Shown piece after piece: positions 1,828 to 38,048 of a DNA stretch of 64,000 bases (positions within the stretch are counted from its first letter, which is position 1; each line of letters starts with the position of its first letter). The notes below the pieces were generated by a model. The model was given only the letters and a program-made list of their open reading frames with translations, was not told the origin of the DNA and did no database searches. The stretch spans positions 372,001 to 436,000 of the forward strand of contig JANQQL010000010.1 in the NCBI GenBank assembly GCA_028289345.1. The letters are read 5' to 3'. This DNA is from Planctomycetota bacterium (GTDB lineage Bacteria; Planctomycetota; B15-G4; SIAN01). Made by a program: the position numbers and the translations under genes.

Positions 1828-3168
1828 TCAGGCCGAGAGGCTCTCGCGGGAAGGTTCCGAGAGGGACGGAACCAATGCGGGCTGGCGATTGCGTGGTTTG
1901 GTCATGAGCACCTGCACGTCACCGATCACTCGCTCCTCGAACCCGCCTTCGCAGTAACACAGATAGAAATCCCACATCCGCTGAAACTCATCCGAGAATC
2001 CCAGTTCGCGCACCTTGTCCTGATTGCGCAAGAAGCGTTGCCGCCAGTGGCGCAGGGTCTCGGCATAGTGAGGAGTGATGTCTTCGACGTGGAAGATTCG
2101 CAGATCCGTGTTCCTCGCCACGCAGTCCGCGATCACCTGATTGCTCGGGATGCAGCTCCCCGGAAAGATGAAGTGCTGAATGAAATCGACCGACTTGCGG
2201 GCCTGCTCGTAGTTCTGATCGGCGATCGTGATCGCCTGCAGCAGCATGGCGCCTTCGGGGGTCAGGAGTTCACTACACTTCTGAAAGAAGGTCCCGAAGT
2301 ACTGATGCCCGACCGCCTCGATCATCTCCACGGAGACCAGCTTGTCGTAGGTGCCGGTCAGATCGCGGTAGTCCTTTAACAAGATGGTGATGCGGTCTTC
2401 GAGCCCCTCTTGCCGGACTCGCTGGGAGGCCAGCTCGTGCTGGGCTTTGGAGATCGTCGTGGTCGTGACCTTGCAACCGTAGTGGCGCGCCGCATGGATC
2501 GCCATCGTGCCCCATCCGGTCCCGATCTCCAGAAGGTGATCGGACGGTGTCAGCCGCAGCTTGCGACAAATGCGGTCCACCTTGTTCCAAGAGGCTTGCT
2601 CGAGAGTGTCGTGGCGAGTCTCGAAGATTGCGCAGGAGTACATCATGCTCTCATCGAGAAACAGCCGGAAGAAGTCGTTGCTCAGGTCGTAGTGAGCGGC
2701 GATGTTTTTGCGGCTTCCTTCCCGAGTGTTCCGCCGCAATTTGTGCGACCATTTCCAAATCGCGCGGACGATCCGAGCAAGTCCCCCTTCCATCCCTTCG
2801 AGGGTCTCTCGGTTGACCGACAAGATGCGAATGACGGCAGTCAGATCGGGCGTGCTCCAACGACCGTTCATGTACGATTCGGCGGCTCCAATGGAGCCCC
2901 CCATTGCGCAGTCCTCATAGAAACGCGCATCGTGGACTTCGATTCGGCCGCGGATCGGAAACGCCGGAGAAAGCACCCCGAAACAGCGCTCCCCCTCCTG
3001 ATCCACGACACAGAGCTCCCCTTCCTTCAAGCCCTCGAGGCTGTGGAGAAAGGCACGCTTCAAGAGCTTCCGCCGTCCTCGAATCGGTGCTGGAGGAGTT
3101 GTCTCCGACGAGGCTCCGCTCTTCGCGGACCGCGGTTCAGCCGAAGGAGAGGAGAGAGGAGTCGACAT
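1828..3168 (-). CDS. cfa: cyclopropane-fatty-acyl-phospholipid synthase family protein
   Basis: A 446-residue class I SAM-dependent methyltransferase of the CFA/COG2230 family, which adds a methylene group from SAM across the double bond of membrane phospholipid acyl chains. Visible signatures are HYDLSNDFF, the MMYSC segment carrying the conserved active-site Cys, the SAM motif LEIGTGWG, the acidic VEMIEAVG motif and the C-terminal CEGGFEERVIGDVQ. The frame stays open upstream, but the ATG at 3168 lies two bases after the stop of the DUF1365 gene and is the likely start. The N-terminal 30 residues are Ser/Pro-rich and low complexity. Operon partners are a desaturase that would make the unsaturated substrate and a second methyltransferase. 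Confidence 0.9.
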   Translation of the reverse strand: MSTPLSSPSAEPRSAKSGASSETTPPAPIRGRRKLLKRAFLHSLEGLKEGELCVVDQEGERCFGVLSPAFPIRGRIEVHDARFYEDCAMGGSIGAAESYMNGRWSTPDLTAVIRILSVNRETLEGMEGGLARIVRAIWKWSHKLRRNTREGSRKNIAAHYDLSNDFFRLFLDESMMYSCAIFETRHDTLEQASWNKVDRICRKLRLTPSDHLLEIGTGWGTMAIHAARHYGCKVTTTTISKAQHELASQRVRQEGLEDRITILLKDYRDLTGTYDKLVSVEMIEAVGHQYFGTFFQKCSELLTPEGAMLLQAITIADQNYEQARKSVDFIQHFIFPGSCIPSNQVIADCVARNTDLRIFHVEDITPHYAETLRHWRQRFLRNQDKVRELGFSDEFQRMWDFYLCYCEGGFEERVIGDVQVLMTKPRNRQPALVPSLSEPSRESLSA

Positions 3169-31743: not shown

Positions 31744-32061
31744 ATGAGCGATGATCGAAACCGATGGATTTGCTCCCACTGGGTCGAATCGCACGAAGAG
31801 CGCCACGGCAAGCGCCGGGTCTTTCGCCATCACACTCACCCGTTTCCGCCCTCTCGGGGACGGTTTGGCTTCGAGCTACGGGAAGACGGGTCGGCGCAAA
31901 AGCTCATGCCCGGATCCGCCGACCGACCCGACGCCTCTCGAGCCTCGTGGACATTGGAAGGCTCCACTCTGCGAGTCTCCGATGCCAGCGGCGAGGACGT
32001 CTACGAAGTGATTGAAATCGACAAGGACAAACTTGTGGTCGAGGCCCAAGAGCGAACTTGA
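31744..32061 (+). CDS. small conserved protein of unknown function
   Basis: A 105-residue soluble protein I cannot assign. The sequence WICSHWVESHEE followed by FPPSRGRFGFELREDG and WTLEGSTLRVSDASG has the look of a small conserved family with a lipocalin-like beta-barrel. There is no signal peptide or membrane segment. A 12-bp-arm hairpin lies 48 bp downstream and may end its transcript. Start spacing to a GCCCCAGCC stretch gives no clear ribosome-binding site, which lowers confidence in the exact start. Confidence 0.55.
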   Translation: MSDDRNRWICSHWVESHEERHGKRRVFRHHTHPFPPSRGRFGFELREDGSAQKLMPGSADRPDASRASWTLEGSTLRVSDASGEDVYEVIEIDKDKLVVEAQERT

Positions 32062-32372: not shown

Positions 32373-33998
32373 ATGGCCGCAAGAAAGAAACCGGGGAAAG
32401 CCACCCGCAGACCGAAGTCCGCAAATCTAACTTCCCGTTCGGGAACCGGCGGCGGACGCGCTCGACGAGCCCAAGGAAGGACAGACTCCTCGGAACCGCG
32501 GCGCTGCTGTGGAACCGACATGGTGCACGAACGGCTGTTGCGAGAGGCGCCGGGCTACGCAGATGGCCGAGCGGCGGTGGAAAACCACTGCTGGCGCATG
32601 ACCCGCGCGGGCATGACGGGCCGCAGCGGCTGTACAGAGATTCCCGTGGTGGTACACGTCGTTCACCGCACCGCCGCGGAAAACATCTCCGAGCAACAGA
32701 TCGAAAGTCAAATCGACGTTCTGAATGCCGACTTCCGCAAGAAGAACGCCGACATCTCCAAGGTGCCCGCGGCGTTTTCGACCCTGGCTGATGACAGCCG
32801 CATCGTCTTCAAGCTTGCGTCGGAGGATCCCGACGGAAATCCAACCAGCGGGATCACTCGGCGCAGCACCAGTGTCAGTGGTTTCTCTCACGACGACTCA
32901 GTGAAGTTTCACTCCAGCGGAGGAACGGACGCGTGGCCCCGCGATCGCTACCTCAACATCTGGGTTTGCCAACTCAGCGGTGGATTGCTCGGCTACGCAC
33001 AATTCCCTGGTGGGCCCGCGGACACGGATGGTGTCGTGATCCTGCATTCGGCGTTCGGGACCACGGGAACGGCGGCTGCTCCCTTCGACAAGGGGCGAAC
33101 CACGACTCACGAAATCGGCCACTGGCTGAACCTTCGTCATATCTGGGGAGATGACGGAACCGGCTGCAGCGGCAGCGACTTCGTGGCGGACACTCCCAAT
33201 CAAGGCGGTCCCAACTACGGCACCCCGACGTTCCCTTCCGAAAGCTGTGGCAACGGGCCCCACGGCGACATGTTCATGAACTACATGGACTATGTGGATG
33301 ACGAAGCCATGGTGATGTTCACCACCGGCCAGGTGTCCCGCATGCAGGCCGCTCTGGATGGTCCTCGAAGCGGATTGGGAAGCGGTGTTGCCTGCGAACA
33401 AGGGCCAAAGCTGAAGGTGGTGGACGATCCCGCCTCTTTGAAGTTTCGTGATGACCCAGCGACCTTGAAGTTCAGTGACGATCCGGCCACCTTGAAGTTC
33501 AGTGACGACCCAGCGACGCTGAAATTCCTGGACGATCCGGGGACGCTCAAGTTCATCGACGATCCCGGAACCCTGAAGTTCTTCGATGATTCCGGGTCCT
33601 TGAAGTTCTTTGACGACGGATCGGATCCGCGACTGGACCCGATCAAGTCGCCGGGATTGGACAAGCCTCCCCACTCCGATTTCGGCGGGGATCCCGGCTG
33701 GCCGTCCTTCCCCTTCCGACAAGGGGGCTACGGAGGCGGTGGTGGCGCCATGCCGTTCGTGCTTTCAACGCCTCATCATTCCAGCGCTTGGGCCGGCAGC
33801 TATCCGGGAGCTGCGCAGGCCCGAGTCGCGCAGCTCGAACAACAACTCAGCCTGCTTCATGAGCAACTGAGCCAAGCACAACAGGCTCAAGCCGCAGGCC
33901 CGCTGAGTCCCACCGACCAAGCCACGGTCGAACGAATGCAACAAGAGTTTCAACGACTCCAGGCCGAATACCAACAGCTGACCCAGGGGGAACGATGA
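32373..33998 (+). CDS. M43 (pappalysin/cytophagalysin-like) metalloprotease with nonapeptide repeat tail
   Basis: A 541-residue protein. Residues about 90-330 are an M43-type zinc protease domain: [11 protein letters not shown] supplies His246, Glu247, His250 and His256, and NYMDYVDD provides the Met-turn. Residues 350-412 are seven tandem nonapeptides of type xDDPATLKF, followed by FDDG, a Gly-rich stretch and a Gln-rich coiled coil to the C-terminus. There is no signal peptide. The N-terminus is Lys/Arg-rich, which is odd for an M43 protease. The stop overlaps the ATG of an MvdC/MvdD-like ATP-grasp gene, so the two products are made together. I infer that the repeats may be substrates for side-chain ester or amide cross-linking by that ligase. 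The start has AGGAG seven bases upstream. Confidence 0.85.
33420..33608 (+). repeat. seven 27-bp in-frame tandem repeats (nonapeptide xDDPATLKF)
   Basis: Seven consecutive 27-bp units encode residues 350-412 of the protease: [18 protein letters not shown], two [27 protein letters not shown] and FDDSGSLKF. Asp2-Asp3, Leu7, Lys8 and Phe9 never change, and position 6 is always Thr or Ser. Codons differ between copies (for example GAC/GAT, ACC/ACG, TTG/CTG/CTC), so the protein sequence, not the DNA, seems to be under selection. Confidence 0.95.
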
Positions 33999-34996
33999 CC
34001 ATTCTGATTCTGGCTCCCGACAGTGATACCCATACCCAGTCGGTGATCGGCCATCTGCGCGCAGCGGGAAGTGATGCCGTGGTGTGTGATCTCGCGGAGT
34101 TTCCACAGAGAAGCCGCCTGGACGTTCACTACGCCGGCCGGTCTCGGAGTTTTGGACTCTCAGTCCAAGGTCGCCGCCTCGACCTCTCCGAGGTAAGCGC
34201 GGCCTGGTGGCGACGGCCGCAACCACCATCGCCCAGTGACTCGATTGCCTCCCAACGCCACCGCCTGTTCGCCTCCAACGAGTGCCAGGAAGCCCTGTCA
34301 GGACTTTGGCACGCCATGGATGCGTTCTGGATCAACGATCCGGCCCGGGATCACGTCGCCCATCGAAAGGTGAATCAGTTGCGTGTTTCCCAGGACGTAG
34401 GATTGACGATCCCCGAGACGTTGATCACCAACGATCCCGAGGAAGCCGGACGATTCGCCGAGCGACGGGGACCAGGCCGAGTCGTGTTCAAAGCATTCTC
34501 CGCCTTCGAAGATGAGTGGCGAGAAACCCGCCTGCTGGGAGACGAGGAACTGGAGAAGATCGAGAACGTCGCTCACGCGCCAGTGATCTTCCAAGAGTAC
34601 GTCGAAGCCGAGTACGACGTCCGACTGACCGTGGTCGGCGATCAGATGTTTGCCGCGGCCATCCACGCCAGCGAGACCTCCTATCCGATCGACTGTCGCA
34701 TGGACATCGCCAACGCGAAAATCGAAGCCATCGATTTGCCCGCCCCGTTGCGTCGCCGGGTGCTCGCGTTCATGAACCGCATGGGCTTGGTCTACGGAGC
34801 GATCGATTTCCGGCGTCGAGCGAGTGACGGAGAGTTCGTGTTCCTGGAGATCAACCCCGCGGGTCAGTGGCTCTTCATCGAGGAGCGAACTCAGCAACCG
34901 ATCTCTCGGGCACTCGCCAACCTCTTGCAACAGCAGGACCAGGGACTGTGCAACCGGGAAGGAGCTGCCCACTCGATGAGCACCGCGCTGGTGTGA
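33995..34996 (+). CDS. MvdC/MvdD-like ATP-grasp ligase (graspetide-type)
   Basis: A 333-residue ATP-grasp enzyme. The N-terminal pre-ATP-grasp part carries AAWWRRPQ. The central part has [15 protein letters not shown] and [19 protein letters not shown], and the C-terminal metal-binding block is [15 protein letters not shown]. This pattern is that of the MvdC/MvdD group, which forms omega-ester and omega-amide bonds between Asp/Glu and Thr/Ser/Lys side chains in microviridin-type graspetides. The ATG overlaps the stop of the repeat-bearing protease gene by four bases. No small separate precursor gene is visible nearby, so the upstream repeats are the natural candidate substrate (inference). 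Other ATP-grasp peptide ligases cannot be excluded. Confidence 0.85.
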
Positions 34997-35289: not shown

Positions 35290-35889
35290 GTGAAGAGATC
35301 CGACCCCCCCCATCCGCCGTCCGCCTTTGAAGGAGAGAACGACCCGGAGCTCACCCGTTGGATCGACCTGATGTGCAACGGAGATCGCTCTGCCTCGGAA
35401 CTCGTGGCGCGAGTGCTGTACGAGACCTTCCACGCTCGTGCCAAGAGCTACCTCTCGGGGGAGTCCGGCGACTTCACTTTGCAGCCCACAGACCTGGTCA
35501 ACGAGGCCTATCTGCGCATGGCCAAGGTCTCCCAGCCCCAGTACCAAGACCGGCATCACTTCATTGCGACCGCCGCGACGGCCATGCGCCGAGTGCTGCT
35601 CGACCACATTCGGAATCGCAAGGCTCAGAAGCGCAAAGCGTCCGGAGTCCAGGTTCCTCTCGACCGACTCACCGCCGAGTTTGAGAACCGAGCGGTGGAT
35701 CTCGATGCATTGGACACCGCCCTCGAGAAGCTGAAGAAGTTCGATCCGCTGATGTCCAAAGCCGTCGAGTTGCGCTTCTTTCTTGGCTTGTCGCTGAATG
35801 AAACCGCCGAGGCGCTCGAGGTGCCAGCACGGACGATCAGCCGCAAATGGTCGCTGACCAAGTCGTGGCTTCACAGGGAACTTTCATGA
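35290..35889 (+). CDS. ECF-type RNA polymerase sigma factor
   Basis: A 199-residue ECF sigma factor with region 2 (DFTLQPTDLVNEAYLRM, HHFIATAATAMRRVLLDHIR) and region 4 (LSLNETAEALEVPARTISRKW). The TLQPTDLVNEAYLRM sequence marks the ECF subgroup that in planctomycetes and acidobacteria is encoded next to Ser/Thr kinases. No anti-sigma gene is present. It starts with GTG and overlaps the kinase start by four bases (ATGA), so the kinase probably controls it by phosphorylation (inference from the family). Confidence 0.9.
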   Translation: MKRSDPPHPPSAFEGENDPELTRWIDLMCNGDRSASELVARVLYETFHARAKSYLSGESGDFTLQPTDLVNEAYLRMAKVSQPQYQDRHHFIATAATAMRRVLLDHIRNRKAQKRKASGVQVPLDRLTAEFENRAVDLDALDTALEKLKKFDPLMSKAVELRFFLGLSLNETAEALEVPARTISRKWSLTKSWLHRELS

Positions 35890-38048
35890 ATCCGGATTCT
35901 TGGGAGAGACTGGCGGAACTCTTTGAGCGACTTCAGGAATTGCCGGAAGAGGAACACGAGTCCTTCCTCGCCACCCACTGTTCCGAGGACCCATCGCTCG
36001 CGGACGAGCTGCGCAGCATGCTCCGCCACTCCCAAGCCCAGGAGTCGGGCTTTCTGAAGAATCCCTTTCCTCAACCGCCGCCGGTCAACAAGAACCGGGA
36101 AGGAAGTGTTCTCGGCGACTTCGTCTTGGGCCGCAAGATCGGCAGTGGCGGAATGGGCGATGTTTACCAGGCCGAGCAGAAGCCGTTCGGGCGCCCGGTT
36201 GCCGTGAAGATCCTTCACTCACTCACCTCGGATCTGTCTTCCGCGGAACGCTTCCGGCGAGAAGCCCAAGCGGCAATGCGCCTGAATCACCCGAACATCG
36301 TCTCGATCATCTCGTACCAGGTGGAAGACGGCGACGCCTACTATGCGATGCAGCTCATCAAAGGGCAGAGCCTCGCTGACTACTTGAATGACGTTCGCAA
36401 GGACCCGAACGCCGCCTGGACTTCACGGGAAGCCGCGGATCGCGTGGCGAAGATTGCCGATGCGTTGGATCATGCCCACCAAAACGGCGTCATCCACCGC
36501 GACGTCAAGCCAGCAAACATCCTGATCGGGCAAGAGGGAACTCCGTATCTTGCGGACTTTGGAATCGCTCGGGATGAGCGAAATGAAACCATCACAGATG
36601 CTGGACAGATTCCCGGCACCGTTCGCTACATGAGCCCCGAACAAGCGCGCATCCTTCAGCTCAATGTCGATCACCGGACCGACGTGTATTCCCTCGGTGC
36701 AGTCCTTTACGAAATCCTCGCCGGTGTGCCGGCCATCCCCGGAACCGAAACGGCCGAGATCCTCGCCAATCTGCAACGAAACGAACCACCACTCGTTCGC
36801 AAACACCGGCCAGGAATCCCCAGCACTCTGACGGAAATCTGCTGGAAAGCACTCCGCCGCGACCCCGACGACCGCTACGGCTCCGCCGCCGAAATGGCTG
36901 CGGACTTGCGCGCGTTCGTGGCTGGAGGGACGGTGTCCTTCCGCTTCCGCCGGCTGTCCTCGGGAGCGCACCGTGCTTGCCGGAAGTACTCGCTCCCGGC
37001 ACTGGCCACCACGGCCCTCCTCTTCGCCGCGTATCAGTTCATGGAATCGAAGAGTGCCACAGCATTCGCTTCCATGGTTGAAATCGAAACACCACCCGGC
37101 GTGAAAGAAACCTACTGGCAGCCGTGTCGGACCGTCCCGGGGTTGTTGGACCCGCCCGAGAAGCTGGCGTTCGACGGCAACACCAGCCAACAGCGGGTCA
37201 TCGACAGCCACTTCGCTCGGCTGACTCTGGTGGACCAAGAAGGAACTCTGCGCGAACTCCTTCGATGGATCGAACCCGGAGAGAGGTTGTCTCTTCCGCC
37301 CGTGACTTCCCAGCGAATGCCTTTGCCGATGAGCAAGATTCCGGCTGGCTCGCTGCAACTGTCTTACTTTGCAATGTCAAATGGCGCTCCGGACAAGATG
37401 TCCCAAGAGGTGCCTTACTCAGGCTTCTCGATCATGCGCCACCCGGTCACCAATCGACAGTTCTTCCGGTTCTTGGAATCTGCGGACCCCGAGCTGCTCG
37501 CCACCTGGAAACCCTGGGACGGGAACGAGCCAGAGTCCCAAGACTGGTGGGAACGGCCGGCCACAGGGATGAGTTGGCAGTCGGCACAGGACTTCGCGGA
37601 GTCCTTCGGCATGCGCCTCCCCACCCTGGTCGAGTGGCAGGTCGCGATGGGCGCCGGACAAGTGAATTGGAACGAAGAAGATTTCGACCAGTTCGTCCTC
37701 GACCGCCCGGAAGTCCTCGAGGTGAATGGCGTTCCTTCCACCCGTGCCGCCTACTTGCAGTTCACGGAGGCGGCGGTCACTTCCGGACACGGCCCTCATC
37801 AAATGAGTCATCCCGTTGGCAACGTCATGGAATGGGTGGCGTCGGCCGTGCCCTACGTCCACGAACCGGGTCGCCCACCCGCATGGGACCGCTTCCAGCG
37901 CTACATCGTCGGCACTGCATGGCACTACCGTCGCAGCCATCTCCCCAAAGACCCCGCTCGAAAACTGAGTTTCGCGAACGCTAGCCAGGCTTCATACGAC
38001 ATCGGGTTTCGATGTGCTCACAGTCTGGACATTCCCGATTCACGTTGA
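35886..38048 (+). CDS. Ser/Thr protein kinase with C-terminal SUMF1/FGE-like domain
   Basis: A 720-residue protein. A short leader typical of planctomycete kinases is followed by a Hanks-type kinase at about 80-350: glycine loop IGSGGMG, Lys in VAVKIL, HRDVKPANIL, DFG, then MSPEQA. A membrane segment lies near 380-395 (LPALATTALLFAAYQF). The C-terminal half ends in a formylglycine-generating-enzyme-like domain (PVTNRQFFRFLE, MRLPTLVEWQVA, VGNVMEWVAS, GFRCA) exposed outside. Such domains in kinases usually bind ligands instead of oxidising sulfatases. The kinase start overlaps the sigma gene stop. Confidence 0.9.
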   Translation: MNPDSWERLAELFERLQELPEEEHESFLATHCSEDPSLADELRSMLRHSQAQESGFLKNPFPQPPPVNKNREGSVLGDFVLGRKIGSGGMGDVYQAEQKPFGRPVAVKILHSLTSDLSSAERFRREAQAAMRLNHPNIVSIISYQVEDGDAYYAMQLIKGQSLADYLNDVRKDPNAAWTSREAADRVAKIADALDHAHQNGVIHRDVKPANILIGQEGTPYLADFGIARDERNETITDAGQIPGTVRYMSPEQARILQLNVDHRTDVYSLGAVLYEILAGVPAIPGTETAEILANLQRNEPPLVRKHRPGIPSTLTEICWKALRRDPDDRYGSAAEMAADLRAFVAGGTVSFRFRRLSSGAHRACRKYSLPALATTALLFAAYQFMESKSATAFASMVEIETPPGVKETYWQPCRTVPGLLDPPEKLAFDGNTSQQRVIDSHFARLTLVDQEGTLRELLRWIEPGERLSLPPVTSQRMPLPMSKIPAGSLQLSYFAMSNGAPDKMSQEVPYSGFSIMRHPVTNRQFFRFLESADPELLATWKPWDGNEPESQDWWERPATGMSWQSAQDFAESFGMRLPTLVEWQVAMGAGQVNWNEEDFDQFVLDRPEVLEVNGVPSTRAAYLQFTEAAVTSGHGPHQMSHPVGNVMEWVASAVPYVHEPGRPPAWDRFQRYIVGTAWHYRRSHLPKDPARKLSFANASQASYDIGFRCAHSLDIPDSR

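Follow-up and report, generated by a model that had tools for sequence, protein, structure and literature searches.

A protease with a repeat tail and C-terminal leader-like motif encoded next to a graspetide-type ATP-grasp ligase

We analysed a stretch of 64,000 nucleotides from a Planctomycetota bacterium (GenBank assembly GCA_028289345.1, contig JANQQL010000010.1, positions 372,001 to 436,000), hereafter the window, in which the gene of a metalloprotease ending in short repeats overlaps the gene of a graspetide-type ATP-grasp ligase (Table 1). An earlier note on this stretch had assigned the protease to the M43 family, and the assignment was borne out: its open reading frame (ORF) matches PF05572 (M43; E 1.4e-15, Pfam), ulilysin/pro-ulilysin 8cd8 aligns across residues 40-336 (E 3.9e-114), and mirolysin is a further match. 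The hallmarks of M43 pappalysins, namely the HExxH zinc motif, the Met-turn and the Cys-Gly pro-segment, are all present, and the protein shares its catalytic domain and Cys-switch pro-segment with ulilysin and mirolysin, the M43 unicellular pappalysins. In mirolysin the zinc is blocked by the Cys-Gly motif, and cleavage before basic residues is preferred (PMC6949598).

Table 1 Features of the protease-ligase locus, with positions in the window (pLDDT, predicted local distance difference test score)
Feature	Position	Strand	Basis or remark
Lipocalin-like small protein, 105 residues, candidate inhibitor or chaperone of the M43 protease	31744..32061	+	Neighbourhood, model
M43 metalloprotease of pro-ulilysin type, 541 residues, ending in a graspetide-like tail	32373..33998	+	
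Pro-segment, residues 42-87; its Cys46-Gly47 corresponds to the Cys-switch motif in mirolysin and ulilysin	32496..32633	+	Alignment to 8cd8; PMC6949598
M43 catalytic domain, residues 88-336	32634..33380	+	Alignment to 8cd8
Zinc motif, intact, residues 246-256	33108..33140	+	Sequence
Predicted graspetide core of eight [TSK]xKxxDD units, residues 346-415	33408..33617	+	Unit counts, shuffles
Motif predicted to act as a C-terminal leader and to bind the ligase, residues 461-473	33753..33791	+	Conservation, likeness to graspetide leaders
C-terminal helical segment, residues 478-537	33804..33983	+	Partly conserved; helices pLDDT 65-84 (residues 481-530), otherwise poor model
Graspetide-type ATP-grasp ligase, 333 residues	33995..34996	+	ATGA, four-base overlap with protease gene

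The second gene, which the earlier note had described as MvdC/MvdD-like and overlapping the protease gene by four bases, proved to be both. Its product matches TIGR04187 with 252 bits (E 7.8e-75), MvdD with 181.5 bits and MvdC with 179.7 bits, against 41 bits for rimK_fam. It also matches PF21068 above the cut-off of that family (Pfam), with the RimK profile at its cut-off (21 bits), and in the PDB it is matched best by two chains that bear the name ATP grasp ligase, by an MvdD-like protein, and by AMdnB and CdnC. These matches place it among the ATP-grasp ligases of the MvdD/TIGR04187 kind, as expected of a graspetide system.

Beyond the catalytic domain, the protease continues into eight repeat units, a Pro/Gly linker, a PF motif and a helical end, in this order. 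The earlier note had counted seven copies of xDDPxTLKF; these are present, with Asp2, Asp3, Thr/Ser6 and Lys8 in every copy, but the register supported by homologues gives eight units, KLKVVDD, SLKFRDD, TLKFSDD (twice), TLKFLDD, TLKFIDD, TLKFFDD and SLKFFDD. They follow the pattern seen across tails, [T/S/K]1-x-K3-φ-x-[D/E]6-D7, which has the make-up of a graspetide-type core with paired Thr/Ser/Lys and Asp/Glu residues, and K3-D7, the KxxxD motif of the corallotide isopeptide, recurs in every unit of the window. At most three units arose in 20,000 shuffles of the 75-residue segment and at most two in shuffles of the whole protein, and any unit at all was present in 3 of the 343 open frames of at least 100 codons in the window, the two besides the protease holding one each. 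Codons vary among the repeats, as had been stated: the differences at unit positions 2, 3, 6 and 7 are all synonymous, and position 5 is free. After the last unit, a K-x-P-x-x-D motif (KSPGLD, KQPGLD, KQPVFD, KLPAAD and others) was found in nine of the ten tails described below, the exception being locus L017 (window 33645-33662, L018-L023, L026 and L039); it may possibly form one more link.

Close relatives of the ligase were all found with the ligase alone. Seven came from a scan of genome contigs (47-59% identical), one from a plasmid search, in Burkholderia stagnalis (54% identical), and one more, in genome G1313 (488 bits), from a whole-genome search with the ligase alignment; a scan of viral contigs with this alignment gave no relative. 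In all nine, the same tail ends the gene directly upstream of the ligase, which makes ten tailed loci with the window, from at least five phyla. According to Pfam, six of the tailed proteins are M43 proteases (the window, L017, L018, L019, L026 and L079), two belong to Peptidase_S8, the subtilisins (L020 and L021), and two to Trypsin_2, the trypsin-like enzymes (L022 and L023). The protease and ligase genes are separated by -4 bases (window, L023 and L026) to about +115 bases (L019), depending on the choice of start. The earlier note had proposed that the tail is the likely substrate and that genomes be searched for the same repeat beside MvdC/MvdD-like genes; searches with the ligase have now given nine such loci besides the window, and both the constant company of tail and ligase and the exchange of the tail among three protease families support the proposal. 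We conclude that the tail is very probably the substrate of the ligase; the pair of tail and ligase recurs in distantly related bacteria, on proteases of three kinds that are unrelated to each other.

In a 20-row ligase tree (ten untailed ligases, with six from M43 loci, two from S8 loci and two from trypsin-like or S1 loci; L053 added, L029 and L061 left out), ligases grouped by protease type and not by phylum, with supports of 97/98 for M43, 98/99 for S1 and 93/92 for S8. The same groups appeared in an earlier tree of 18 rows (95/98, 100/100 and 83/70, respectively), from which 4 of the 22 ligases had been left out because of a wrong frame; three of those four are in the 20-row tree. Because the ligase tree groups by protease type, the protease and ligase genes seem to have moved as pairs, with at least two changes of protease type.

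A tail profile, which catches two tails left out of its building (L026 and L079), was located at one place in each of the seven source genomes (in two pieces in one of them). When searched over phyla or a class, it was found in 1 of the 392 genomes that represent the phylum of the window and in 1 of 318, 1 of 297 and 1 of 296 genomes of the others, each time only in the central genome, and no new tail appeared in the other 1,299 genomes, at most 9-12 first-look candidates being scored per genome. On plasmids, a tblastn search with the tail matched 1 of 72,556 records, the one bearing the close ligase, and tail queries from L020 and L023 gave nothing there. The profile had no match in 36 untailed-ligase loci (some overlapping; 45 with wider copies), many of which were viewed with flanks of 1.5 kb only, nor in 16 M43 loci (a set of 13 and the plasmid loci L085-L087, which have no such ligase). 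In 571 genome searches, in which some genomes were counted twice, the ligase profile gave five tailed ligases 488-549 bits and all other hits (E ≤1e-30) at most 320 bits. Repeats kept without the ligase, which the earlier note had named as evidence that would refute its proposal, were not met in the tail-profile and plasmid searches, which yielded almost no tails beyond those already known, only the plasmid tail being new. Because the profile searches found no new tails and scored few candidates, the rarity of the tail and its absence without the ligase are weak statements.

The earlier note had described the repeats and the ligase without the S8 and trypsin-like versions, a third gene, the likely pairing of residues and a leader-like motif behind the core. 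This motif, PF[IV]L[SA]TPHHSxAW, is the most conserved stretch outside the units, its residues P, F, T, P, H, H and A being invariant in eight cassettes. The full motif is found in nine of the ten tails, L021 having PFGIATPHHAFAG, and a PF motif follows the core in all ten; a leader at the conventional N-terminal place was not seen, the N-terminal parts not having been searched for a second motif. Graspetide leaders bear P-hydrophobic motifs such as PFFARFL (PMC8939145), and small putative precursors of other ligases carry a PF motif at the N-terminus (MVPFILS at L042 and QPFFARYLEEP at L002). The best-scoring untailed ligase (L053/L075, 320 bits) adjoins a 375-residue protein that has DPK repeats and GPFILTTNWPY at its C-terminus. 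When the leader of ThfA, whose key motif is RPFG, was engineered to the C-terminus, modification by ThfB was kept at half rate (PMC13003496). Because the PF motif resembles graspetide leaders and the relocated ThfA leader works, the motif is best read as a leader that naturally stands at the C-terminus, and we hold this to be quite likely. At L075, the ligase gene (992-1954) and the gene of the 375-residue protein (1974-3101) lie on the minus strand; the latter product is a large putative precursor in which no Pfam domain was found.

The 59 units of the ten proteins indicate which residues would be joined. Position 1 is T in 28 units, K in 23 and S in 8, and position 6 is D in 54 and E in 5. 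Lys3 is present in 52 units and an acid at position 7 in the same 52, and both are absent from the same seven, six in L026 (for example TLASTDV) and one in L018 (KLQILDQ), all of which keep residues 1 and 6. In TLKFIDE, the sole L026 unit with Lys3, the acid at position 7 is kept too. Since Lys3 and acid 7 are lost together while residues 1 and 6 are retained, crossing links 1-6 and 3-7 are predicted; we regard this pairing, which is read from the sequences, as probable, and the co-loss turns it into a sharp chemical prediction. CorB, a TIGR04187 ligase, makes a Lys-Asp(i+4) isopeptide in the KIVADDP part of VIVKIVADDP, as shown by nuclear magnetic resonance (NMR; PMC13097080). This corallotide segment has no nucleophile at position 1 and no acid at position 6, the converse of the degenerate units, and by analogy the predicted 3-7 link would match the NMR-proven Lys-Asp isopeptide of corallotide.

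A third gene, encoding a lipocalin-like protein of about 105 residues, lies directly upstream of all six tailed M43 loci and is absent from the three S8 or trypsin-like loci that could be judged (L021-L023); L020 was not judged, its contig ending 344 bases before the protease gene. All four plasmid hits of this gene lie beside an M43 gene, one at the tailed Burkholderia locus and three, in Rhizobium ruizarguesonis, R. leguminosarum and Azospirillum, beside an untailed M43 gene with no ligase. From these untailed loci we conclude that the lipocalin-like gene keeps to the protease, and the tail to the ligase. The two-gene form, an untailed ulilysin-type M43 gene with the lipocalin-like gene, occupies L085 2864-4330, L086 2859-4330 and L087 2967-4306. 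No family in Pfam and NCBIfam matches the lipocalin-like protein above its cut-off, PF13648 (Lipocalin_4) falling below it (E 0.013). Its model (pLDDT 83.8) is a lipocalin-like barrel, which resembles lipocalin-like folds at Z 7-8, values that below 8 may reflect a common arrangement only; potempin E, at Z 7.0, is tied with unrelated chains, and Foldseek gave no fold match at E 0.001. In Tannerella, potempin genes directly precede the genes of the KLIKK proteases that they reportedly inhibit, potD being listed with mirolysin, and the inhibition is stated in that report as data to be published (PMC7296668). The M43 loci share this arrangement, a small gene directly before the protease gene, but the potempins are lipoproteins (PMC7296668), whereas the window protein has no signal; no sequence link between the two is established, and in fold the resemblance is no closer than to other lipocalin-like proteins. 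By this analogy, we somewhat favour an inhibitor of the potempin type that has no signal peptide.

The earlier note had pointed out that the protease lacks a signal peptide. This held in a simple hydropathy check of the window protein, but it is not peculiar to tailed proteins: the three untailed ulilysin-type relatives on plasmids likewise lack one by eye, and its absence as a tail-linked trait was rejected on this ground. By the hydropathy check, the N-terminus is hydrophobic in 9 of the set of 13 M43 loci mentioned above, the other four being not judgeable. The source genome encodes four further M43 proteases (L012, L014, L015 and L016) with hydrophobic N-termini and no tail repeats.

The whole is best explained, with a probability of roughly 0.7, by a graspetide system in which a complete protease is the precursor. 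The ligase would dock on PF[IV]L[SA]TPHHSxAW behind the core and join side chains within each unit; action of the ligase on the tail, with side-chain crosslinks as the predicted outcome, is in itself highly probable. One link would run from residue 1 to acid 6, as an ester if residue 1 is Thr or Ser and as an amide if it is Lys, and the other from Lys3 to Asp7 as an isopeptide, so that both rings would cross and give a two-ring knot per unit. In microviridin, the Thr and Lys rings cross. Through its eight units the window protein would lose up to 16 waters (-288 Da), and the product would be a tail that is stiff and withstands Lys-directed cleavage, linking the zymogen protease to the helical end. 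Linking every Lys3 would block the cuts of the protease in its own tail; such protection is expected because linked CorA resists trypsin at the crosslinked Lys (PMC13097080) and this type of protease cuts before basic residues. In the M43 versions, the lipocalin-like protein encoded upstream would probably hold the protease in check. Of the functions that the tail may have, as a stalk, as a released product or in latency, we tentatively rank first a protected stalk or tether.

Several points weigh against a graspetide system with the protease as precursor. TIGR04187, the best match of the ligase, stays below the cut-off of the model (252 against 350 bits), and neither a leader peptidase nor an exporter was recognised in the immediate neighbourhood of the loci, whose flanks were listed and not scanned. 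The degenerate units were listed by eye, and in L079 four units were counted by allowing one inserted residue behind Thr. The naive p for the co-loss of Lys3 and acid 7, 2.9e-9, overstates the case because the co-loss stems from two proteins only (L026 and L018), in which units are not independent. Both trees place the untailed, long-branch ligases L042 and L028 within the tailed cluster, at uncertain positions, and a single origin of the tailed group is therefore not established. Finally, the model of the full-length protease was too poor for use (mean pLDDT 39.5).

Ranked second is a self-processing precursor, in which the fused protease would serve as a maturation enzyme in cis, cutting itself after linking and freeing an active multi-ring graspetide. 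Any protease would suffice for this, which fits the swap among M43, S8 and Trypsin_2, and characterised graspetides inhibit proteases after release from a precursor (PMC8939145), with linked Lys resisting cutting (PMC13097080). However, the leader-like motif lies behind the core and would remain on the product if the cut fell between protease and core, a conserved site for such a cut was not recognised, and the M43 type has a pro-segment of its own, as if kept for activity; we consider such self-processing unlikely. The earlier note had also offered a built-in inhibitor, which would have the linked repeats fold into the active site of the attached protease. This proposal, now third in rank and improbable, draws on reports of characterised graspetides as protease inhibitors (PMC8939145) and on the serine proteases among the tailed proteins (4 of 10). 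It is weakened because proteases of three mechanisms (metzincin, subtilisin and trypsin-like) bear the same unit, and because the M43 type already has both a Cys-switch pro-segment and, at all six loci, the separate lipocalin-like candidate inhibitor.

Ordinary acidic repeats for calcium binding or secretion, of the repeats-in-toxin (RTX) type, would leave the ligase to modify something else; the period of nine in the window and the C-terminal position on a metalloprotease agree with this by their likeness to RTX repeats. This reading is nonetheless very improbable, given that no repeat family was found in Pfam, that spacing varies among the loci, that Lys3 is kept as strictly as Asp, that the tail was never met without the ligase in the tail-profile and plasmid searches and that the three untailed ulilysin-type plasmid loci have no ligase. 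The slimmest chance falls to addition of amino acids to the tail by the ligase, a RimK-like glutamylation without crosslinks: the RimK match reaches the Pfam cut-off, but the TIGR04187, MvdD and MvdC scores stand against the low rimK_fam score, the PDB matches are MvdD-like protein, AMdnB and CdnC, and the unit holds matched pairs of nucleophile and acid. An ordinary low-complexity tail was rejected.

Corallotide (group 15; CorA/CorB/CorC/CorD of Corallococcus) shares with the present loci the TIGR04187 ligase, a large repeat precursor and the KxxxD isopeptide (PMC13097080). The corallotide precursor, of about 22 kDa and with five repeats, contradicts the statement in the earlier note that known graspetide precursors are small. 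Corallotide differs in that its precursor, as described, contains no protease, that the N-terminal CorA1-86 suffices for ligase binding, that full ligase activity depends on the oxygenase CorC, and that the published unit is without the pair of residue 1 and acid 6 (PMC13097080). Neither a 2-oxoglutarate-Fe(II) oxygenase like CorC nor a beta-lactamase-like CorD was found with Pfam among the five neighbouring ORFs of the window; flanks elsewhere were not scanned. Microviridin-type systems (MvdC/MvdD) share the ATP-grasp ligases and the PF leader motif and form two esters and one amide (PMC8939145), but they modify a small peptide with an N-terminal leader and use two ligases. In the fuscimiditide system (ThfA/ThfB), a graspetide ligase acts from a C-terminal leader that is engineered, not natural (PMC13003496), and rings can be closed around entire proteins inserted into the loop of the core (PMC12291112). 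Ligases adjoin peptidases of several unrelated families in graspetide branches 7 and 8, for which no precursor could be predicted according to the report (PMC8939145), and in group 32, whose diverse neighbouring proteases were suggested to be maturation or resistance enzymes (PMC13097080). There the peptidase was regarded as a possible processing or resistance enzyme, whereas here it carries the core. No description of a protease-fused graspetide core or of a natural C-terminal graspetide leader was found in searches of the open-licence literature.

If the proposed system is real, the protease itself would be the precursor, and the missing precursors of protease-linked graspetide ligases would be supplied. 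The chemistry of ribosomally synthesised and post-translationally modified peptides would then be used on a working enzyme, a previously unrecognised extension from small peptides to whole enzymes. In a broader reading, for and against which we judge the odds to be evenly balanced, ligase and tail would form a general module for post-translational modification that can be exchanged between enzymes and has its natural leader at the C-terminus. It would move horizontally, its ligase and core-plus-leader tail making crosslinked-tail enzymes of unrelated signal-less proteases, each unit a crossed two-ring knot, with a lipocalin-like inhibitor in the M43 version.

Downstream of the ligase gene, window positions 35290-38048 hold an extracytoplasmic function (ECF) sigma factor gene (PF07638) and a gene for a fusion of Ser/Thr kinase and formylglycine-generating-enzyme (FGE)-sulfatase domains (PF00069 and PF03781), with no link seen to the protease-ligase pair. 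A reading as a defence system was rejected: PADLOC, run on four proteins, matched the S8 protein of L020 to a generic subtilase entry, with weak hits for the M43 protein (E 0.005 and 0.008) and none for the ligase and L023. The source genome has a second ligase locus, L002 (1106-1309 and 1501-2520; G000:C3, about 279070-280484), with the look of a canonical graspetide system, in which the gene of a putative precursor of 67 residues with the microviridin-like leader given above precedes that of an ATP-grasp ligase sharing 31% identity with the window ligase.

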